Positions 6,876 to 63,732 of a DNA stretch of 64,000 nt are shown one piece after another (position 1 is the first letter of the stretch; every line of letters starts with the position of its first letter). The DNA lies in contig NC_092672.1 of the NCBI RefSeq assembly GCF_964355755.1, positions 36,700,501 to 36,764,500 of the forward strand, read 5' to 3'. The notes under the pieces were generated by a model. The model did no database searches. It was not told where the DNA came from and was given only the letters and a program-made list of their open reading frames with translations. Both the position numbers and the translations under genes were made by a program. The stretch comes from Antedon mediterranea. Lineage: Eukaryota; Echinodermata; Crinoidea; Comatulida; Antedonidae.

Positions 6876-7149
6876 AAAGCTTTGTCTAAACTATCAAACT
6901 TTATGTGACCAGGGAAGAATGTAATGTCACTCTTCTCTGATGTGATCATAAATATAGACATACACATGATGTCATATCACTACCATATTTGGACATGTCA
7001 CTAATATATTTTGGCATGTCATTACCATATTTTGACATGTCACTAATATATTTTGGCATGTCACTACCATATTTGGGCATTTCACTACCATATTTGGGCA
7101 CATCACACTTTTTTTTGTAAAATTAGTTTGATAGTGTAGACAGAGCTTT
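6876..7149. mobile_element. MITE family A copy 2 (longest)
   Basis: Termini AAGCTTTGTCTAAACTATCA / TGATAGTGTAGACAGAGCTT. It contains about six 20-22-bp units of the form 'catgtcactaccatatttgg', more than any other copy here. The antisense open frame through it is only this repeat. Confidence 0.85.
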
Positions 7150-15069: not shown

Positions 15070-18000
15070 CTGTAACAGTTAAATGTATTCAATTTAAATG
15101 TTTACGATCACTGTACAAAATGATTTATCAATTATAATCACTGAAAAGTGAAAAGTAGAAACCTGCTCATGACATACGTTCCTTATTCTGAGGATATCAC
15201 TATAAAAAAGACCCATTGATACAATAGAACCAATCATTTGTAACAAACTTATTCAGGGCCATGAAACCGCTATTTAAAATGAACAAAGTGCAATATTATG
15301 TTTAACACTAAGGCCAACCTATTCTAGGAATATCACTATCAAAACACATTTATAAAATTACTGAAAAGTGACATATAAAGATATCTTGTATTTTCTCCCG
15401 TAAGAAATTTTACAACAATGTTGGCAGCTGTAATTATCTCTTAATTATCTAATTATAAAAAAAAAATTAAAAAGAAAGATATTATGAAACCCAGAAATGT
15501 AGAAATTAAACATGCTTTAATAGAATGTACTGGAATGTACTATGTTTAATTAATTTTATGTAACATGAGTATAAGTTAGTTAATAAACTTGTAATGTAAC
15601 ATGCGAACTTGACATGAACGAGATAAACATACATTAAGTGCATTCAGATGAGTATACAACATTGTAGTAATATGCCAATTACTTTGAATGTACAGTAAAT
15701 TAACATTTTATGTTAATCACCCAAATTATCAAAGTTAAGAATGAATGAGTGAGCCAAAACATATCATACATAGAGGGCAGTAGACATGCTTTGGCTTAAA
15801 ATTTTAATGGTAACATATTACTTTGCTTTTACTTTAGACCAAAGAACTTATAACACAAGAATCTCCTGTTCGTCCGAAGCGCGTAACAATTTCGAAAGGC
15901 ATTGTGGGATAGAATAGAGCTATGGGTGGCGCCATTGTGAGCCATGGAGTAGGGCGCCTGCATCAAATTAGAAAGTCAAAATCATAGAGGGGATCTGCTA
16001 ATGGTCTAGGGGGGTAGAGTAATTGACTGAGGAGTAGGGCGCCCGCATCAAATTAGAAAGTCAAAATCATAGAGGGGATCTGCTAATACTCTAGGGGGGT
16101 AGAGTAATTGACTTCCTAGTTTGGAGGGGGCGCTGCTCCATGCTGTGAAATGGCGTCGCCCAGTTTGACCTTTTAACCCTGTACTTCCGATACTTTGTTT
16201 TGAATGCAAATTGAAGAACAGGAGATTCTTGTGTTATAAGTTCTTTGTTTAGACACAAATTGTTTGTGACCGAGAAAATAAAACTATTTGTAAAGAAATA
16301 TTTGGACACTTGAATAAAATTATTACCTTAATCAAGACAATGTCGCCAGCGTCCACTGCAACATCCGTGCCCGTTCCTATGGCGATCCCTACGTCAGCCT
16401 GGACCAATGCCGGTGAGTCGTTGACCCCATCACCAACCATAGCAACATGTTTACCTTTCGACTGGATCTCTTTCACTTTATCAACTTTATTATGAGGTAG
16501 CACCTCAGCGAATACTTGGGTGATTCCAACCTTTGAAAAAAAGTAATATTTCAATACAAGGAAACTGTATAACATATTGGCAATTAGGAAAAAAGATAAT
16601 TAAAGCTCTGTCTACACTTTCAAAATGTGATGTGAAAAAATGTGATGTGCCCGTATATGGACAGGATGATGTCATATTACAACTATATTTGGGCATATCA
16701 GTATCATATTTTGGCATATCACTACCATATTTGGGCATATCACTACCATATTTGTACACATCACACTTTTTTTTGTCAAAGTTTGATAGTGTAGACCGAG
16801 CTTAATAGACATGATGTCATATCACTACCATATTTGGTTATATCGCTACCATATTTGGGCACATCATGATAGTGTAGTCAGAGCTTTAGAATTTGTTGAT
16901 GAACCGTTACCTGTTTGGCAATGTTGTCAGCAGTACGTCTGTTGTCACCTGTTAATAGTATGACATCCATTCCCATGTTCTTCAAGATGTGCACTGTATG
17001 TGCTGCTTCTTCCTTGACTGAATCAGCCACACTCAGCATACCGGCAATGACGCCTATAAAAAATGTCAATTTATTAAAGATGTATTGTCCCCCAAAAACA
17101 TAACAAATGAAGATTGATAAAGACTTTGAATAGGTCATTTTGTAGTTTTAATAAAGTTAATAACTTTTGTAAAACAAAAATAATTACTTCACTTATAAAA
17201 AGACAAAAGTAACGATTAATTTTAACCAAAAGCCATTGTCTGACAGATAATTTAGGTTTTTTTTTTTTAAATTACATTTTTTTTCATCTAGTTTTCGGTG
17301 AATAACTATTATGCGACATTAAAACTGCATATTCAATAAAGAAATGGTTAAAACAATTTTTAGGCGGACAATATATCTTTAAAAGCAACAGGTTACAATA
17401 TACAGGGATTCTATGCAAGTTATTAAAGAAAAGGGCATGTAAACACAATTAAAAGAAAGTTTATGTACGAACCATTGACAGCTACCAAGACGGCTGTTTG
17501 ACCTTTGTTCTCATGGTCTGACATGACACTGTTGATGTCATCCGTCACTGTCAGTCTGTTTTGTTTCATCCATTCTCGGTTTCCAATCAATACATCATAG
17601 ATTTTGTTAGCATTATTGTCTGAAAGTAAATTATTCAACTAAAGCTCTGTCCACACTATCAAACTTTATGTGAAAAAAAAAATGTGAGGTGGCCATATCG
17701 ACATGATGATGTCATATCACTACCATATTTAAGCATATCACTACCATATTTAAGCATATCACTACCATATTTGGGCACATCACACTTTTTTTGTCAGACT
17801 CATTTGATAGTGTAGACAGAGCTTTAAGATAAATATACTATATACTAGATAGTTTATAATAGATATATTTATCATTTAATATGTAGAAATACTGGTTTGT
17901 AAGGTGTATTATATAAAATTTAAAAAAACATACCATCTTTAATCTGGCCTTCATCATCGGTTATATCGGCTTCCTCTCTGGCAATGTTAGCGTTATTATC

Positions 18001-24000: not shown

Positions 24001-27000
24001 AGATTAGCAAACATCTGACCAATTAACTTAGCTCATTGAAGCAAAGATACTTGGAAGTAATATTGATTATTAATCATGACAGGACATTTTTTTATTTTGT
24101 GGTTGAGAATGCATTTGCTGTAGATACAATAAAACAGAATATAAAAAGACACAATAAAAAGAAAACTATCCGAATGACAATGACATATAGTTTATTATTG
24201 GTAATCCTTGGCCACATTGCCAAAAACATAAAATAAAAATAAATAAAAATAAATAAACAAACAGAATACATAACAATCTACTACAGTATGTACAACAAAC
24301 AGAACACAAGTAGAACATTATTTGTTTTTTAATTAGAAATACCTTTTTGCTTTAAAAGTTGTTTCTCGATGCTGTTCACACAAGAAGCACATGTCATCCC
24401 AGTAACCGTTAAAATACACTTCTTACAATTCTCTTTTGTTGGTAATTTATGCATCTCTATAGCAACAGTGGAACTGTCTTCAACTACATCTGAAATAAAT
24501 TTATATTTCTTAATATTTAAATGTTACTCTTGTTATTAACGTAAATTTTTTGTTTTTTTTTGTAAAAAAGCATCAAAACATGAAGTTTGCTTTATGTGAT
24601 GTCTATTCAATCAATTGATAAATGAGAAGTATGTGGTACAGTAGCTGTTCTAAAAATAAGGTTATTTACTTATTAATATAATCCTTAAAAATATAATTGC
24701 ATTTTAAATTGATTAAAACATTTGTTTAGTTAAAATTAAATTTGATTAAAAACATTAAAACTAATACTTATATTATATACTAGTAGTAACAGAGTGCAGC
24801 TAAAAACAATAAAACAGTTTAGTTTTCTGTGTTCAGTGTCGGTTACAAAAATAAAGTTATTTACTTATTCTAATTGTTAAAATTTAATTGCATTTTAAAT
24901 TGATTAAAAAATTTGTTTCTAATATTCAAAACTAATACTATTACTAGACAAATAACATTGTGCAGCTAAAAACAATAAAAAAAAGTTTAGTTTTCAGTGT
25001 CAATAACAATAGTTATAATTTGTTCAAACTACAATAGTTATAATTAGTTTAAACTACAATAGTTATAATTAGTTCAAACTACAATAGTTATAATTAGTTC
25101 AAACTACAATAGTTATAATTTGTTTAAACTACAATAGTTATAATTTGTTTAAACTACAATAGTTATAATTTGTTTAAACTACAATAGTTATAATTTGTTT
25201 AAACTACAATAGTTATAATTAGTTTAAACTACAATAGTTATAATTTGTTTAAACTACAATAGTTATAATTTGTTCCAACTACAATAGTTATAATTAGTTT
25301 AAACTACAATAGTTATAATTAGTTTAAACTACAATAGTTATAATTTGTTCAAACTACAATAGTTATAATTTGTTCAAACTACAATAGTTATAATTTTTTC
25401 AAACTACAATAGTTATAATTTCTTTAAACTACAATAGTTATAATTTGTTCAAACTACAATAGTTAAAATTTGTTCCTTTTCTGCAATCTTATAATAATGT
25501 GATGTGCTCATATATATCCATGATGATGTCACATCACTACCATATTTGGGTATATCACTACTATATTTGGGTATATCACTACCATATTTGGGCAGTACAT
25601 CACACTTTTTTTTGTCAAACTAGTTTGATAGCGTAGACAGAGCTTTATACAATTCTAATTGTTTCTCGGGGGAATGCACATAACAGGAAGCGAGGGTATT
25701 ATCCCTCTATCACAAAAAGTGTTCACACATTACCTCACGACGACAGCTGTAATAGCTAGATTATACAATCTACTGTTATATATTGAATCTATTTTGCACT
25801 AACTAATTAAATTATACCCATTATAGTTTAAACCAGAAACTATTGTTAAGATAACACAGTATACGATTGCTCAATAGGTATATTAAACATCTCTTATTTT
25901 AAAAAAGCATTTAAATAATTGCGTTTGTTAGCTGAGGAAGGAATCGGTGAAATATTGACGAAAAAGAATGTGAAAACTATGTGAAATCATGTAATTGCTT
26001 TAACTAATCTAGGTGTGAGTGATCAGGAAGGGGAGTGCGGAGGAGCGCTCATTCGACAGCAAAAATAAAATTATAACTGCTTTGAACTATCTATATTTGA
26101 CAGATACTGTAATATGTGAAATGGGTCTATGATCATTTTGTAGTTTGCCTTTTGGGTTTTTCATGCATAATCACAACACATGCAATGGAAACTAACTCTG
26201 ATGTCTCGTCACAAGTTGAGATTTCTCTCTCTCTCTCTCTCGCAAAAACTCATACATTTGTTGAAGTATTTTCAACAACTCTCCAGACTTTCTGGAAAAC
26301 ATTTTTTTGTGTCTGGTTTTTGGAAAGTTTACTGAAAAAAATGGAAACGTGGCAAGTAAGCCGTGTGTTTTAAAAAATGAAATGTAGTAAAGTAAATGTG
26401 TCAAAATCTTTTGGAGTAATGCAAGTAAAGTTGAGGTAAGAGAAGCTATGTAAACAAACTGAAATAAAACATGATAAAACTTTCACTCAAAACACACCAT
26501 GCAAAATCCGAGGTTTATGTTCTAATCTCAAACAATCTCTTTCTGCGTAAATCTTCCTTCACTAACAAAACACCAGTTCACCAGAAATTTTTCAAACGAC
26601 AGTTAAAACTCTGTTAAATTGTTTACTAAACAAGTCACATGACGAGCATTCATGCAAATGACGTTGTACTTACTTAGTGTAAGTTTCTATTATATTTACT
26701 AACAAAAAGCAAAATGATTAGTGAAGTGAATTTAAACGTTGTAAACAATTTTACCACTGTCAAAAGAGCTTGTTAAAAGGAGGTCAAGTTCTGAACTCTG
26801 TTTGCCATTATTCATCTGTCTATCCTTTGCTGAATTGGCATTAAAGAAAGTTGGGAGAAAGTCATGTTAAATATTAATAAGAACATTAAAACACTATTTA
26901 ATTTAAGTTCAAACTCAAATCTATATTTTTTCAAATTATTTAATTTTATATTTTCTAATATTTTTATTTATTTATTTATTATTTATTTTATATTTTTTTG

Positions 27001-31186: not shown

Positions 31187-32800
31187 GTATAAAAAAACAT
31201 GCAGTCCGCCCTCTATGATAATAATAAACCAATCACAAGATCTTCCAGTAAAAGTGACTAACTTTAATAGTTTTGTGGTTTCCATAACACACAATAGTGG
31301 CTGAAAACGTAGTAAGAAACTCTGATAAATCTATGGTAAGTTAACAAAATTACACTATATAGTATTAATAATTTATCAAAGTAACCCGAGTGTGTTCCCT
31401 TTTGTGTACCCCTAGGCCTATTTCCAAACAACGAACATTCAGTTGATTTTATCATTGTAGGCCTATATAGTATAGTAGCCTTACTATAGTAGTATAGCCT
31501 AATAGTATTGGGCTGATGTTAACCCATATTGAGCAAAGTTCAAGTAGGGCTTTAATAGTTACTGATAGGGCCTATATATGCTAAGCACGTAACTATTAAT
31601 AATTATTACTGTGGTAGTAGGTAGGGCATGATTAAGGGCACAACTAACCCTGGTAAGCAATTATTTTTTTACAACACTACACAGTAAAAAATTCTTGATA
31701 ATAATTAATATAAACAAACAATTATATTAAAAATATATTTATAAATTATAGGCCTAAAAGTCACAAGTTAAAATTCAAGTAGGCCTATAGCATAGAGGAT
31801 TGTTAATGTTGTTTTTGTTCGTAAAAAGTAACTTATTTACAAATTAAGTCATAGTAATACTGCCATGCCTTTTATGATTATTAAATATTCAATACACTGA
31901 ATGTTCACCATTGTGTCCATCAGCTATACACAGTTGATTACCACCAGTAACTATATCCAATTGCTGTTATTGTTACCATTCATAAAATTTAAGTATTGAA
32001 ATGAATCACACAATATATGCATGGCAAGAACACACAAATATTTTTAAATTATTATATTTCTATTGTTCTTTGTAGTTTTACCATTTTTAAAAATAAATCA
32101 ACAACATTTTAAATACATAAAGACAATAATATAGGTTTAATAATGTTCAAAGTTATGGCATGCTATATGAAGGTATGGCACGCTATATTTTAAACTTTGT
32201 TAATGGGACATCCTTCTTTTTTTGCCTTGTGGTTATAAAAGCAAATTTATAATTTCCTGATTTAATTTCTTACGGTTTTAATTGTTGACTTGTGTACAAT
32301 CATGTGAAAATCCACATGATTATTTTATGTTTATTCTGTTTAGCTCCAATACACATAGGAATATCTATATACGAATGAGGGTACGTTTATTGTAAATACA
32401 TAATATAAAAATAACGCTTAAAAAAGAACGACATTTCGACTCCATCATGGGGTCATTATCAAGTCCAATGAATAAAATATAAAACAACAACTATTTAAAT
32501 AACAAAAGACTATATATCTATGTTTATTCTGCTTTGCCCTAGTATATTAAAATCTTAAGCACTGTTTGTTTTAGTGTGCCGATAGATAGATAGATAGAAA
32601 TAGTCTGGACGGATTTTATCTTAGTTAAGAAACAGTGTCCGAATGGGAATGACCTATTATAAATAGGTATAATAAGTGTGTGCTGTCTATAACTGTATAC
32701 AACTACTCCCACATCTAAATTGGTGACATTTTAATATTGACATTTTCTGCATTTTTCTTGTAGGTTCGTCTGATGCGATACTACAGTTTTAACAATAATG
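31187..32800 (+). promoter_or_regulatory. Possible promoter and 5' non-coding exons of the TMEM116-like gene
   Basis: A TATAAA-like word lies at about 31188 and a CCAAT box at about 31228. A possible first exon ends CTATG at about 31334 before a GTAAGT donor. A second short exon-like block, 32764-32800, is bounded by a pyrimidine tract with TAG and by GTAAGT, with no useful reading frame. An acceptor before the coding start (TTCTTAG, about 33870) requires at least one upstream non-coding exon. Sequence signals only. Confidence 0.25.
32425..32475 (-). other. Degenerate Penelope-terminus / hammerhead-like relic
   Basis: On the minus strand the sequence reads TTGATAATGACCCCATGATG, then GAGTCGAAATGTCG. 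A GACCCCA/TGGAGTC stem (one mismatch) is followed by GAAATGTC, the same order as the motif at 12676. No coding relic lies beside it. Confidence 0.3.
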
Positions 32801-33934: not shown

Positions 33935-36900
33935 ATGGAACCGTACAATCACATCGCATCAAATCTCTCGCATGTTGTACCTGATGTAACGTTCATGGCG
34001 CAAAGATTCCACAACAGGTGTTTAGTTTACGATGAGGAGAATGAAGAATTGGTAAGATCATATTTTGTTATTATGTTAATCAAATTTGCATATTCAACTT
34101 AATGGTATTTGTACTTGACTTAAGTATGTACTAAATTTTATAAGAATATTTCAATTCCAAATCTATTATGCTCTACTGTTTGTGATTTCTATAGTATGTT
34201 TGTTATTTAAATTGTTATGTTGTATATAAATGTATATAAATCTGGTACTTGAGCTTTTCACGTTGATTCACAATCTCGACAATAGCAGCGTAAATAGCTG
34301 AATCATTGTTGTTAGTTTACTGTGTGTCAAATTCTGTCTGCTGTTTACAATAACTTTTTATCTATTTTGTCTGCGAGTATGTGTGGCAGTATGTTGATTG
34401 CATTAATGTGCGCGTATGTGTGGCAGTATGTTGATTGCATTAATGTGCGCGTATGTGTGGCAGTATGTTGATTGCATTAATGTGCGCGTATGTGTGGCAG
34501 TATGTTGATTGCATTAATGTGCGAGTATGTGTGGCAGTATGTTGATTGCATTAATGTGCGCGTATGTGTGGCAGTATGTTGATTGCATTAATGTGCGCGT
34601 ATGTGTGGCAGTATGTTGATTGCATTAATGTGCGCGTATGTGTGGCAGTATGTTGATTGCATTAATGTGCGCGTATGTACTTACAAATTTAAGACATTTA
34701 CCAAAAACGTATACATTCATATTACCATAAACAGTAAAAGGTTGTTTTTTTAACAAAATCAACTCTTTGACAATTGGAAACTTTCCAAAAAACTTAAATT
34801 TCAGTTAAATAAAACAAAAATTAAATTATTGTGTTAAGAAATTAATTTTTTTAGTTGCAATCACGGCCTACTGTATATAGTATGTAACTTTCATATTCCA
34901 ATATTGATTTAAAGCGTTAAGTCGTAAAAATATAACATAGGCAATGGACTTTTGCTTATTCGCTGTATATAAATATGCATGTAAACAAGAGAAATCAATA
35001 GATTCACTCAGATTACCTTTACACAGAGAATCAAAACAAATAGATAATATCAAATAAATTAAGTGAATCAACTTTACTAGTAGGGTTTGTATCACAACCT
35101 GTTGAATACATAGACGTCATGCATTGTTTTAATTGTTGTGCCACTTCCTCTATAGTTTACGAAGGTGTATCTTAGCAAATGCCAATTGGTTGACACTGAC
35201 TTCCTCAGCGCTTACAAGATGATCTTAAGTACGAGCCAGCTACAAAGAATACAATAGATATTCAACTTTATATATTGATTTTCAACAGATTGATACTGTA
35301 CTGTTTTAATTTCCGTTTTTCAGCCAGAAAACAGATGTTGTGTTGTTTTTCTAACTTTATTATGTTGTGTTTCTGAATTCTTTAATTTCTCTACTTTATC
35401 TATATTTACTGTTTTATTTTAACTTATATTCTATACAGGCTTTTCTATGCCTGCTTTTAATATTTCATTATGCAAATGTTATCAAATTTATCATCTAAGG
35501 CCTAAATAAAGTATTATATGTACCATGATAAAGAACAGGTTGCTGGTATAAAATGCCCATTCATTTTTACAATTTTTAAATAACAGTTTTGGTCACTATT
35601 GTTGTTTAATCTACATCCCCCACCTCACCTCACTCCACTCACAACTGTTAAAATGAAAAACTTGTAATAATACTATGTGTTGTAATTGTTCTTGTAGTTG
35701 TTGGCTCTTCGATACATACACATAGTGTTTGCCTCTCTGAGTATCATAGGGGCGAGTTCAACTATCATTTACTCCATAATAAAGGGCGTGGTTACAAGTG
35801 AAGAAGTAAGTACACTACCAGAATCTTAAGTTATGTTCCTTATTTAGTCTCATACAGATATTTTAGTCTGTTTAGAGCATGTTTGCAATAGTATACAAAT
35901 AATGAATGTTTATGAGCGTAATGGTACAAATAATGGCATGCGGTGAATGATAAAAGGTTATATTTCAAAGAGGAGAAGCTCAAACAAAAAATATTTTAAA
36001 CACAAAAAAATGAAAAAAATTACTATTGAACCACTGTTCAATAGTGCGTACTATTGCATGCCATGTGACACACTATCATCCAATCAAATGACAGGAATTT
36101 ATTTAAATGTTATATAATAATTGTATGGTGTTACTGTTATTTTTAAATTCCAAGTGTTTGTTGTCTAAAATAAATTTTTAATAACAAGTTTTATATTGTA
36201 GGTACGGCCTTTATTCCATTTGTCATTAGCTGACTTGGGGTTGGCAATATGCTGGGTTATTGGTGCCGCTGTCTGGAATGATGATAAGGATGACAGCGAA
36301 GGCTGTGTTTATTTACAAGCTATTACAGAAGTAAATATTATCTTATTGTATTTAGTCATCAAAGGCTAGTACTTACTACCACTATACTAAAGCTCTGCCT
36401 ACACCGTCTATCAAACTAGTTTGACAAAAAAAGTGTGATGTGCCCAAATATAGTAGTGGTATGGTCAAATATGGTAGTGATATGACATCATCATGTCCAT
36501 ATATAGGCACATCACATTTTTGTCACATAAAGTTTGATAGTGTAGACAAGGCTTAACATCCTTTCCCATCATTTTTTTTTTTCATTTTGGGGTGGACTTT
36601 TTTGACTATTCAACGGTGATGAACCCTTGCATAGGGGTCAGTTACTGTAATAAATTTAAAACCTTTTAATAATACTTTTATCTATTTAATGAAGATTATT
36701 ATTATAATTTGTTCTTTTCAGGCATTCCATGTATCAACATTTTTCTTGACTGTAAATTACTCTTTGAATGTTTATGTGCGAATAAAAGATAGACAAAATA
36801 GAGCGATGAAGTTATCAACATTAATGGTAAGTTATCAACATTAATGGCAAGTTATCAACATCAATGGTAAGTTATCAACATTAATGGTAAGTTATCAACA

Positions 36901-39900
36901 TTAATGGTAAGTTATCAACATTAATGGTAAGTTATCAACATTAATGGTAAGTTATCAACATTAATGGTAAGTTATCAACATTAATGGTAAGTTATCAACA
37001 TTAATGGTAAGTTATCAACATTCATACTAAGTTATCAACATTAATGGTAAGTTACCAACATTCACACTAAGTTATCAACATTAATGGTAAGTTATCAACA
37101 TTAATGGTAAGTTATCAACATTAATGGTAAGTTATCAACATTCATACTAAGTTATCAACATTAATGGTAAGTTATCAACATTCATACTAAGTTATCAACA
37201 TTAATGGTAAGTTACCAACATTCATACTAAGTTATCAACATTAATGGTAAGTTACCAACATTCATACTAAGTTATCAACATTAATGGTAAGTTATCAACA
37301 TTAATGGTAAGTTATCAACATTAATGGTAAGTTATCAACATTAATGGTAAGTTATCAACATTAATGGTAAGTTACCAACATTCATACTAAGTTATCAACA
37401 TTAATGGTAATTTACCAACATTCATACTAAGTTATCAACATTAATGGTAAGTTATCAACAAATGTCTGTTATTTAAATTAATTTATATTGTTTATTTTTT
37501 ATTTATATCTTATAGTCAAGTATTAAAATGAAGTGGGGGCTACGAATGGTGTATGTGCTTTCATGGTAAGTAGTTTGTTACCAGAAATTAATTTAAAGAT
37601 TGCACTTAAATAATAGTATAGCCACAGGGTACGAAAAGGAAAAGGTGGGATATTACTTGGGTTACATTAATAATATATTTCTGAATTTATGCTAAATTAG
37701 GGGTTATACTTGGTCATAAGGTATAAGGTTGTTTAATTTTTTTCAGGTTTTTTTCATGTTATTTTTTCATGTTGTTTTTTCATGTTGTTTTTTCATTTTT
37801 TTTAACGTTATTTTTCATGTTGTTTTTTCATGTTGGTTTTTCCTGTTTTTTTTCAGGTTGTTACCAATTATAATAATGATTCCTATAGTGTATTACCACG
37901 AGACAGTTGACCTACTTAAATGTTACAGGTAATTTACATTTAGTAACTTTTATTAAAACAATCAACCCTAAAATCATATTTACAAAGGATCCCACAATAT
38001 TTAGCTGTCAATGTTATGTGTAAAGTGGCAATTATCAGATCCAATAATGCATAACATACTTTACATCATGTGAAAAAATTATGTCCTGAACCTAAACTTT
38101 GTACCTACGTCTAAGTATCTAATTTTATTGTGTCCTCTAAAAATACCACTATAGCACCCTCTATGACAAACTATATACCATCTCTGTTGTGTCTTCTCTA
38201 ATAAATATGATATAGCATCCTCTATTTTCAATTCATTTATTTATTTGACCAACAAACCATATTGTAAAATATACAGAGATGAATTGGTCAGAGACTGCTA
38301 AAGAAAACAAGATTACAATAACTACAAGAGTCAGCAGTCTTATGATCTTAACTAAAATAAATTTATAAAATTTCATTTTATGACAAACTACAATATTTCC
38401 ATTTCGTCCTGAATGAATGATATAGCGCCCTCTTTATATGCCAAACTTATCTGTAGTTCTTATTTGTTTTCAAGATGTTTGCTGTTATTCTACAGACCAT
38501 CAGTTCAGTCCGTAAGTTAACAAATATTATAATTTGAGATGATTTTAATTCAGAAAGAAAAGATAAATACAAAAACTTAGCAAAAAAAAAAAAAAATTGT
38601 TTTATTCATTATCTTTCTTGCTTTTGGGTTTAAAGAAGTTATTCGAATTAAATTGATGAATTTAAATTAAAGATGACAACAGTTTCTAATGAATGCCTTG
38701 TTTTCACGTCTGTATAATTATTATTATTTGTAGAGAGATGAGGACTACGACAGCTGGTGGTGGGAGAATTATGGTGCTATTTTCTTTGTAATATCGTTAG
38801 GACTTTCAATGATTATAATAATTGTAAGTATTTTAAATTTCATTTAGATAATAATGGTAAAAGACAAAATGTACTAATAAAAAAAATCATAAGCTCCAGC
38901 TAAAAGTGAATATTTATCTAACCTAAAACCCTTTCAATTTGCCTAGCCCAGTTTACACACACAGGCAGTATACCATACAAAACACAAGTGTTGACGCCCC
39001 ACTGTATAAAATTTATTAAACCCAGAATAAAAAATGCATACTATATAATTAAAAGGTTAACAGTATTAAAAATTAGATTTAACAATCTTAATGAAATTGC
39101 CAAAATGAATAGAAAAGGAATTTTAACACAATTTAATTCTTGTTTAATATATAATATAAATTATATTTGACAATCAATGTAAATTTTATTATCTTTTAAG
39201 GTTTTCTATTTGTTGTCAATAAAAGTTTTCAGAATATTAATAAAACAGAATAGTAAGTATATTTGTTTCTCATATTTGACTCTTAAAACCTTAAAACAAG
39301 CCCATGGGGCTACTTTAGAACTGTTTACATCTTTTACCTAGCTAGTATTTCGAGCTTGAAGTATCAAGTGACCAATCACAAGGCTTACACTTCAAAATTC
39401 TCCAAACCAATACTATTTCTGGGAAATGTAAAATATATATCAACTTAAAAAAAAAAAAAAAAAAAAAAATTATATTTCAATCAACTTATGTACAATATAT
39501 TACTTAAGTGTGAATGAATACATATTTACATCTTCATTTTCTAGGAAATCAGTATATTAAATTAATTAAAAATACTGTTTAAATTAATAATGTTTGTTTT
39601 TAATAAATGTTAGTGTGGACAGATGCGCAACGAGATGCTGTAAGAAGTATGAGAATACGTATAACGTTCTACATCCTTGTCTTTCTTTATTGTTGGATAC
39701 CAGGTAGGTAAATTGAATATTTGGTATTTGTAAGTGGGGGGGGGGGGGAAGTTCGGGGGGAGGTGATGTAGGTGGCAAAATCCAAAGAGGATTAGAGACA
39801 TGAAAATAATGGAAATTATAATAGTGGTTACAAATAATCGGTATTGGTAACAATCATAAATCACCTTTCTAATCTAACGCAAGTAAATAAATGCATCGAT

Positions 39901-63524: not shown

Positions 63525-63732
63525 AAAGCTCTGTCTACACTATCAAACTAGTTTGACAAAAATAGTGAGATGTGCCCATATATGGTAGTGATATGCCCAA
63601 ATATGGTAGTGATGTGCCTACAATATGGTAGAGATATGCCCAAATATGATAGTGACATGACATCATCATGTCCATATATGGGCACATCACATTTTTTTGT
63701 CACATAATGTTTGATAGTGTAGACAGAGCTTA
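63525..63732. mobile_element. MITE family A copy 15
   Basis: Complete copy with four internal units, upstream of the first visible PLXDC-like exon. Confidence 0.85.

Follow-up and report, generated by a model that had tools for sequence, protein, structure and literature searches.

A minisatellite at an exon-intron border repeats a 5' splice site in Antedon mediterranea and resembles arrays at other exons of the same genome

Repeats at exon-intron borders have been described before. In amphioxus, minisatellite-like tandem duplications of such borders, called 'mirages', were reported in Adh3 and the globin genes, with units of 10-72 bp in Adh3 and about 150-160 bp, in few copies, in the globins (PMC3087553), and they are also described in TnC (troponin C) and PGBD5 (PMC3902484). 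According to the former report, mirages show length and somatic instability, regular splicing is apparently undisturbed and no aberrant mRNA is reported. In human, a 31-bp VNTR at exon 13/intron 13 of CBS appears in a table alongside lowered activity and elevated homocysteine (PMC1395315); another paper does no more than repeat the CBS reference (PMC5188458). In duplicated human genes, variable tandem repeats located at exon-intron boundaries may alter introns (PMC2812944), and repeats in introns are the subject of an earthworm paper.

Here we describe a minisatellite in a 64,000-nucleotide stretch of the Antedon mediterranea genome, hereafter the window; positions are counted from its first nucleotide and all features lie on the forward (+) strand. 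The initial annotation had described about 32 repeats of 20 bp running from exon 4 into intron 4 of a gene. The array is real and exactly located: Tandem Repeats Finder places it at 36809-37460 with a period of 20, 32.6 copies and 89% matches, and the unit table gives 32 full units of AAGTTATCAACATTAATGGT plus a partial unit of 12 bp. Unit 1 consists of the final 18 bases of exon 4 (36809-36826) followed by GT, so that the copied part of the exon is two bases longer than the 16 originally given. Like the amphioxus mirages, it is thus a tandem repeat across an exon-intron border, starting 18 nt inside the exon, and its units carry a splice signal (22/32); in the mirages, as far as they are described, the flanking exon is intact. 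Its unit length also lies inside the range of the Adh3 mirages (PMC3087553). We therefore consider that the array fits with the known mirage-type border minisatellites. With the human CBS VNTR, each repeat of which may carry a used donor, it shares the position at an exon-intron boundary. That VNTR is tied in the table of PMC1395315 to lower CBS activity in people. The cases of PMC2812944 differ in that they concern recent paralogs and intron gain, whereas the window holds a long array of donors after a fixed exon.

The unit table shows that ATG|GTAAGT is present in 22 of the 32 units. The figure of about 22 donor copies originally given is therefore right as a total, but only 21 of them follow the authentic donor. 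These 21 lie within 36867-37452, with their GT at 36867, 36887, 36907, 36927, 36947, 36967, 36987, 37007, 37047, 37087, 37107, 37127, 37167, 37207, 37247, 37287, 37307, 37327, 37347, 37367 and 37447. Two variant sites add to these: 36847, where the donor is GC, and 37407, where it reads GTAATT. Eight units of a second type, type B (units 11, 13, 17, 19, 21, 23, 29 and 31, within 37009-37428), have lost the GT by the common changes A15C, G18A and G19C and carry no donor. They are confined to units 11-31 (8 of the 21 units there), often alternating with normal units, and units 4-10 are identical to one another. Such a pattern probably reflects ordinary minisatellite turnover. It also bears on the idea that the array is an assembly artefact, or a repeat collapsed or expanded in assembly: the identical units 4-10 leave room for a misjudged copy number and one haplotype is represented, but the interspersed unit variants and the comparable arrays at several other loci of the assembly argue against it, and we consider it extremely improbable. 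A search of the whole genome (354 Mb) for the exact 20-mer gave 21 occurrences, all of them within this array. In the surrounding 2.2-kb region GGTAAGT is found 23 times (the 22 array donors and the donor of exon 5), whereas no more than two were reached in any of 2000 mononucleotide shuffles, which excludes chance as the source of the array donors.

The host gene was modelled with ten exons and 287 open codons, the model ending before the 3' end and the stop codon of the gene. Its product has a Pfam 7tm_1 match over residues 79-274 (E 5.1e-8), and its relatives in the PDB, class A GPCRs, reach E 1.4e-5 at best; we read it from these matches as a 7TM-receptor-like protein, for which TMEM116-like, the name in the initial annotation, is a putative label. 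No paralog was found in the genome, since the eight protein matches at E 0.01 or better are the gene's own exons, and no ortholog was found. Exon 4 (36722-36826, 105 nt, 35 codons) is preceded by an acceptor ending in TTCAG and followed by GTAAGT at 36827-36832; its end was placed by the gene model and the reading frame, and the 7tm_1 match spans the junction with exon 5 (37516-37565), which falls after residue 153. Intron 4 (36827-37515, 689 nt) consists nearly entirely of the array.

The frame test separates the first donor from all others. From donor 36827 alone does the frame run open into both exon 5 and exon 6, and exon 5 is in frame solely from it. On extending exon 4 beyond this donor, TAA is met in frame at 36842-36844 (offset +15), and all 23 later sites of the array (21 GTAAGT, the GC donor and GTAATT) bring in a stop six codons past the 35 of exon 4, at codon 41 if counting begins with that exon. 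This bears out the earlier proposal that the first donor alone keeps the frame and that any later one gives a stop within about six codons.

To see how far the window array stands alone, we scanned the genome for donor motifs standing three in tandem and read the sequence upstream of the first donor in each array. The census comprises 24 arrays, that of the window and 23 other loci (L006-L028); it is a sample among the matches listed, and at least five further arrays lie outside it (C2:9684969 and, on C3, four members of the L027 family). G+C is 0.320 in the window and 0.337 across 93.5 kb of loci, against about 0.41 in Branchiostoma. By reading, six of the 24 arrays start where a coding exon ends on its 3' side, and we therefore rejected the idea that the window array is unique. 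The units of these border arrays measure 20 bp (window), 37 bp (L007), 29 bp (L008), 31 bp (L011), 30 bp (L022, with two extra copies) and 17 bp (L023). Five of the six loci have 13-26 extra intact donors, which sets them apart from the mirages as described. One further array, L027, is a candidate; judging from a second copy of the exon upstream, the exon end more probably lies 6 nt ahead of the first motif of the array. The remaining 17 were assigned to no exon edge, calls that for most were made from upstream frames and acceptors alone; one of them, L006, sits in an intron, shortly 3' of the donor of an exon whose Lipoxygenase match stays below threshold.

We also considered whether donor motifs are enriched in such arrays, which the reversed-motif controls do not support. 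Three tandem GGTAAGT gave 1176 matches in the genome against 710 for the reversed motif, but on contig 1 these correspond to 6 distinct arrays against at least 10 for the control, whose matches were listed up to 39.6 Mb. The longer motifs gave mixed outcomes against their reversed controls (CAGGTAAGT, 38 vs 13; ATGGTAAGT, 234 vs 63; AAGGTAAGT, 86 vs 37; GAGGTAAGT, 24 vs 109; AGGTGAGT, 273 vs 53), and long single arrays dominate among the matches listed. For the other border, a search for three tandem TTTTNCAGG found 24 matches in 11 arrays (32 matches for the reversed control). Ten of these arrays were read at their 3' end, and one of them stops at the start of an exon (L034, DDX54-like, with three acceptors); the eleventh, in L013, was read from the donor side alone. 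The 5'/3' asymmetry of border arrays (6/24 vs 1/10) is a hint, in numbers too small for a comparison.

Four of the six border arrays lie in genes with solved relatives, namely DHX8, TDP2, eIF3L and HUWE1. In DHX8, the two joined exons match at E 6.7e-58 and the alignment runs without a gap over the first-donor junction to the exon past the array; the copied exon tail specifies MQIHLTEPP, the very residues found in the solved DHX8. In TDP2, the two joined exons match at E 3.9e-35, again with no gap at the first-donor junction, and the copied tail encodes conserved residues. In eIF3L, the junction is likewise free of gaps (two joined exons, E 3.4e-10). These gap-free alignments indicate that productive splicing starts from the first donor at all three loci. 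HUWE1 matches by one exon at E 1.2e-20, and its DUF908 match improves from 3.3e-5 to 1.5e-10 once the exon after the array is added. L023 has no Pfam match; its putative exon was called from an open frame and an acceptor, and the peptide looks to us like a coiled coil. In all the border arrays but that of HUWE1, five of six, a later donor would either introduce a stop or shift the frame; both extra donors of HUWE1 would add in-frame residues.

These loci also indicate how the arrays arose. With two mismatches allowed, the exon tail has 29 bases in common with the next unit in DHX8, 25 in TDP2 and 3 in eIF3L. Because the copied tail encodes conserved residues at DHX8 and TDP2, the array there clearly copies a pre-existing exon; at eIF3L the sequence points only weakly in the same direction. 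The initial annotation had proposed duplication across the exon/intron border, and this origin gains support from DHX8 and TDP2 rather than from the window gene, for which the same direction would hold by analogy. An unrelated intronic minisatellite might instead have grown up to and into exon 4 by chance, as minisatellites are common in the window and 17 of the 24 census arrays were assigned to no exon edge by reading, with one further candidate. This is very unlikely, however, since the array opens with the tail of exon 4 itself as unit 1, and the tails at DHX8 and TDP2 carry conserved residues, which makes the exon the source at those two loci.

All 22 GTAAGT donors of the window array share identical nine bases, ATGGTAAGT, so that sequence strength cannot choose the first among them. 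In RNA folding, two stretches of the array are more stable than shuffles (z -3.94 and -3.58) and exon 4 with the first donor is no better than shuffles (z -0.19); a neighbouring unit can serve as pairing partner for the donors, which would not single out donor 1. An order effect may do so. When two consensus 5' splice sites stand in tandem, the first is predominantly used, and 3' sites show no such order effect (Mikl et al., PMC6783452); that paper also states that context can break the first-donor rule and that earlier evidence is conflicting. The reporters resemble the window array in having equal consecutive donors after one exon, but they carry two designed donors in a library, whereas the array is natural and has about 20. 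In addition, exon definition suits the window gene because its exons are 50-129 nt long and the other eight modelled introns are 291-1646 nt long. If the intron rather than the exon were defined, the donor nearest the acceptor (37447) or another late donor would be used and the gene would be largely non-productive. According to the title of Hicks et al. (2010), competing upstream donors enhance proximal splicing; this favours the intron-proximal site and points away from first-donor use in the array. Yet use of donor 37447 would leave an intron of 69 nt, far below the other eight, the message would stop at codon 41, and the conserved proteins at DHX8, TDP2 and eIF3L require the first donor, and thus we regard such a choice as highly improbable. 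The order rule of PMC6783452, the sizes that suit exon definition and the 69-nt intron left otherwise together lead us to expect that the first donor is used in the window gene and that the array is removed whole.

Another reading, raised in the initial annotation, gives the later donors a function. They would bind U1 as decoys or as a buffer, and a copy-number-dependent share of transcripts would pass into decay-prone isoforms with premature stops, so that array length sets the output of the gene. The identity of the 22 donors and the common early stop of all 23 alternative sites are in its favour. The U1 model has at least 42 matches in the genome, in one cluster on C5, and the five U1 genes that were read have ACTTACCTG at the 5' end; their match opens with ATACTTACCTGG, which can pair with GTAAGT. 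The human CBS VNTR, listed with lowered activity and elevated homocysteine (PMC1395315), also fits this reading. On the other hand, the in-frame extra donors of HUWE1 show that a stop trap is no general design, and the amphioxus mirages are reported as harmless to regular splicing (PMC3087553; PMC3902484). The variation of the arrays also speaks against a maintained function. Variant alleles per column were 0.33 in donor columns vs 0.37 in others for five border arrays and 0.20 vs 0.29 for five control arrays, a weak test given that the arrays were chosen by motif and two were covered in part. Donor columns vary less than the rest in L007, L011 and L023, and in the window array they vary slightly more (0.077 vs 0.055 per site). 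Donor columns thus seem neither clearly purged nor clearly maintained, and are without clear maintenance when set against the five control arrays. The higher donor-column variation in the window array could reflect some purging of decoys, which would count against a tolerated passenger. Altogether, a decoy, U1-buffer or length-tuning role is unlikely.

We therefore favour, at a probability of about 72%, that the array is a mirage-type border minisatellite that is tolerated and near-neutral, with the first donor productive. A short tandem duplication over the exon 4/intron 4 border would have carried the last 18 exon bases and the donor into the intron, after which the repeat would have reached 32 units by slippage or unequal exchange; because the coding side could not grow, the array would spread solely into the intron. 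Border duplication is thus the probable birth mechanism in the window gene, by analogy with the other loci. With the exon defined from its upstream acceptor, the first among equal donors would be favoured and the whole array removed as intron, and an occasional later donor would give a premature stop and a non-productive message. The array would then serve no selected purpose and bear, if any, a small cost that depends on its length; it would be nearly neutral. A bolder extension is that 5' border minisatellites are a recurrent genome-wide class in the lineage, tolerated as the first donor wins, that their copy number is a polymorphic rheostat on productive splicing, and that 3' copies are lost or eroded for want of an order rule; this we hold to be rather unlikely.

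Finally, long intact donor arrays beside conserved genes are an addition to the known kind of border repeat. Where some twenty intact donors adjoin a conserved exon, nature itself tests how the spliceosome picks one of several equal 5' splice sites, and in each border array a dose series already exists. If the first donor is chosen at every locus, the first-come rule of the human reporter library would be valid in an evolving genome. If donor use leaks with copy number, such repeats would be a hidden source of expression variation.

The 7TM-receptor-like gene carries a second array (37738-37862), built of a 13-bp unit (TTTTTTCATGTTG), which extends into the acceptor of intron 5. The true intron ends in TTTTCAG/G, and the array copies are without the AG because six of the eight TTTTCA sites carry CAT in place of CAG. 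Elsewhere in the 354-Mb genome of the same organism (G000), a 3' splice site with a repeated 40-bp unit was found upstream of a DDX54-like exon (L034, C1:41235700-41237000), with three acceptors of the form TTTTTCAG/GTCGTGTAG.

Intron 1 of the 7TM-receptor-like gene holds a 37-bp minisatellite (34372-34678; 8.3 copies, 98%). In addition, a 37-nt exon-like stretch (32764-32800), which has the acceptor TTGTAG and the donor ATG/GTAAGT, lies 5' of the modelled start codon and is possibly a 5' untranslated exon of this gene.

At the genome scale, at least 42 matches to U1 snRNA are gathered in a single cluster (C5:15664856-15752909), many of them spaced about 1.7-1.9 kb apart. A 34-bp unit, AGGTGAGT, forms arrays at at least five separate places in C3:20.09-21.65 Mb (L027, L031), and at the candidate locus L027 a small exon-like copy has the array at its end. 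Moreover, a 21-bp sub-repeat, CATATCACTACCATATTTGGG or its complement, is scattered over the window (6973-7100, 16673-16858, 17713-17783, 25533-25592 and 63569-63659) and beyond, including L008, which has a 29-bp donor array at a coding-exon 3' end. This dispersed sub-repeat perhaps belongs to a short mobile element.
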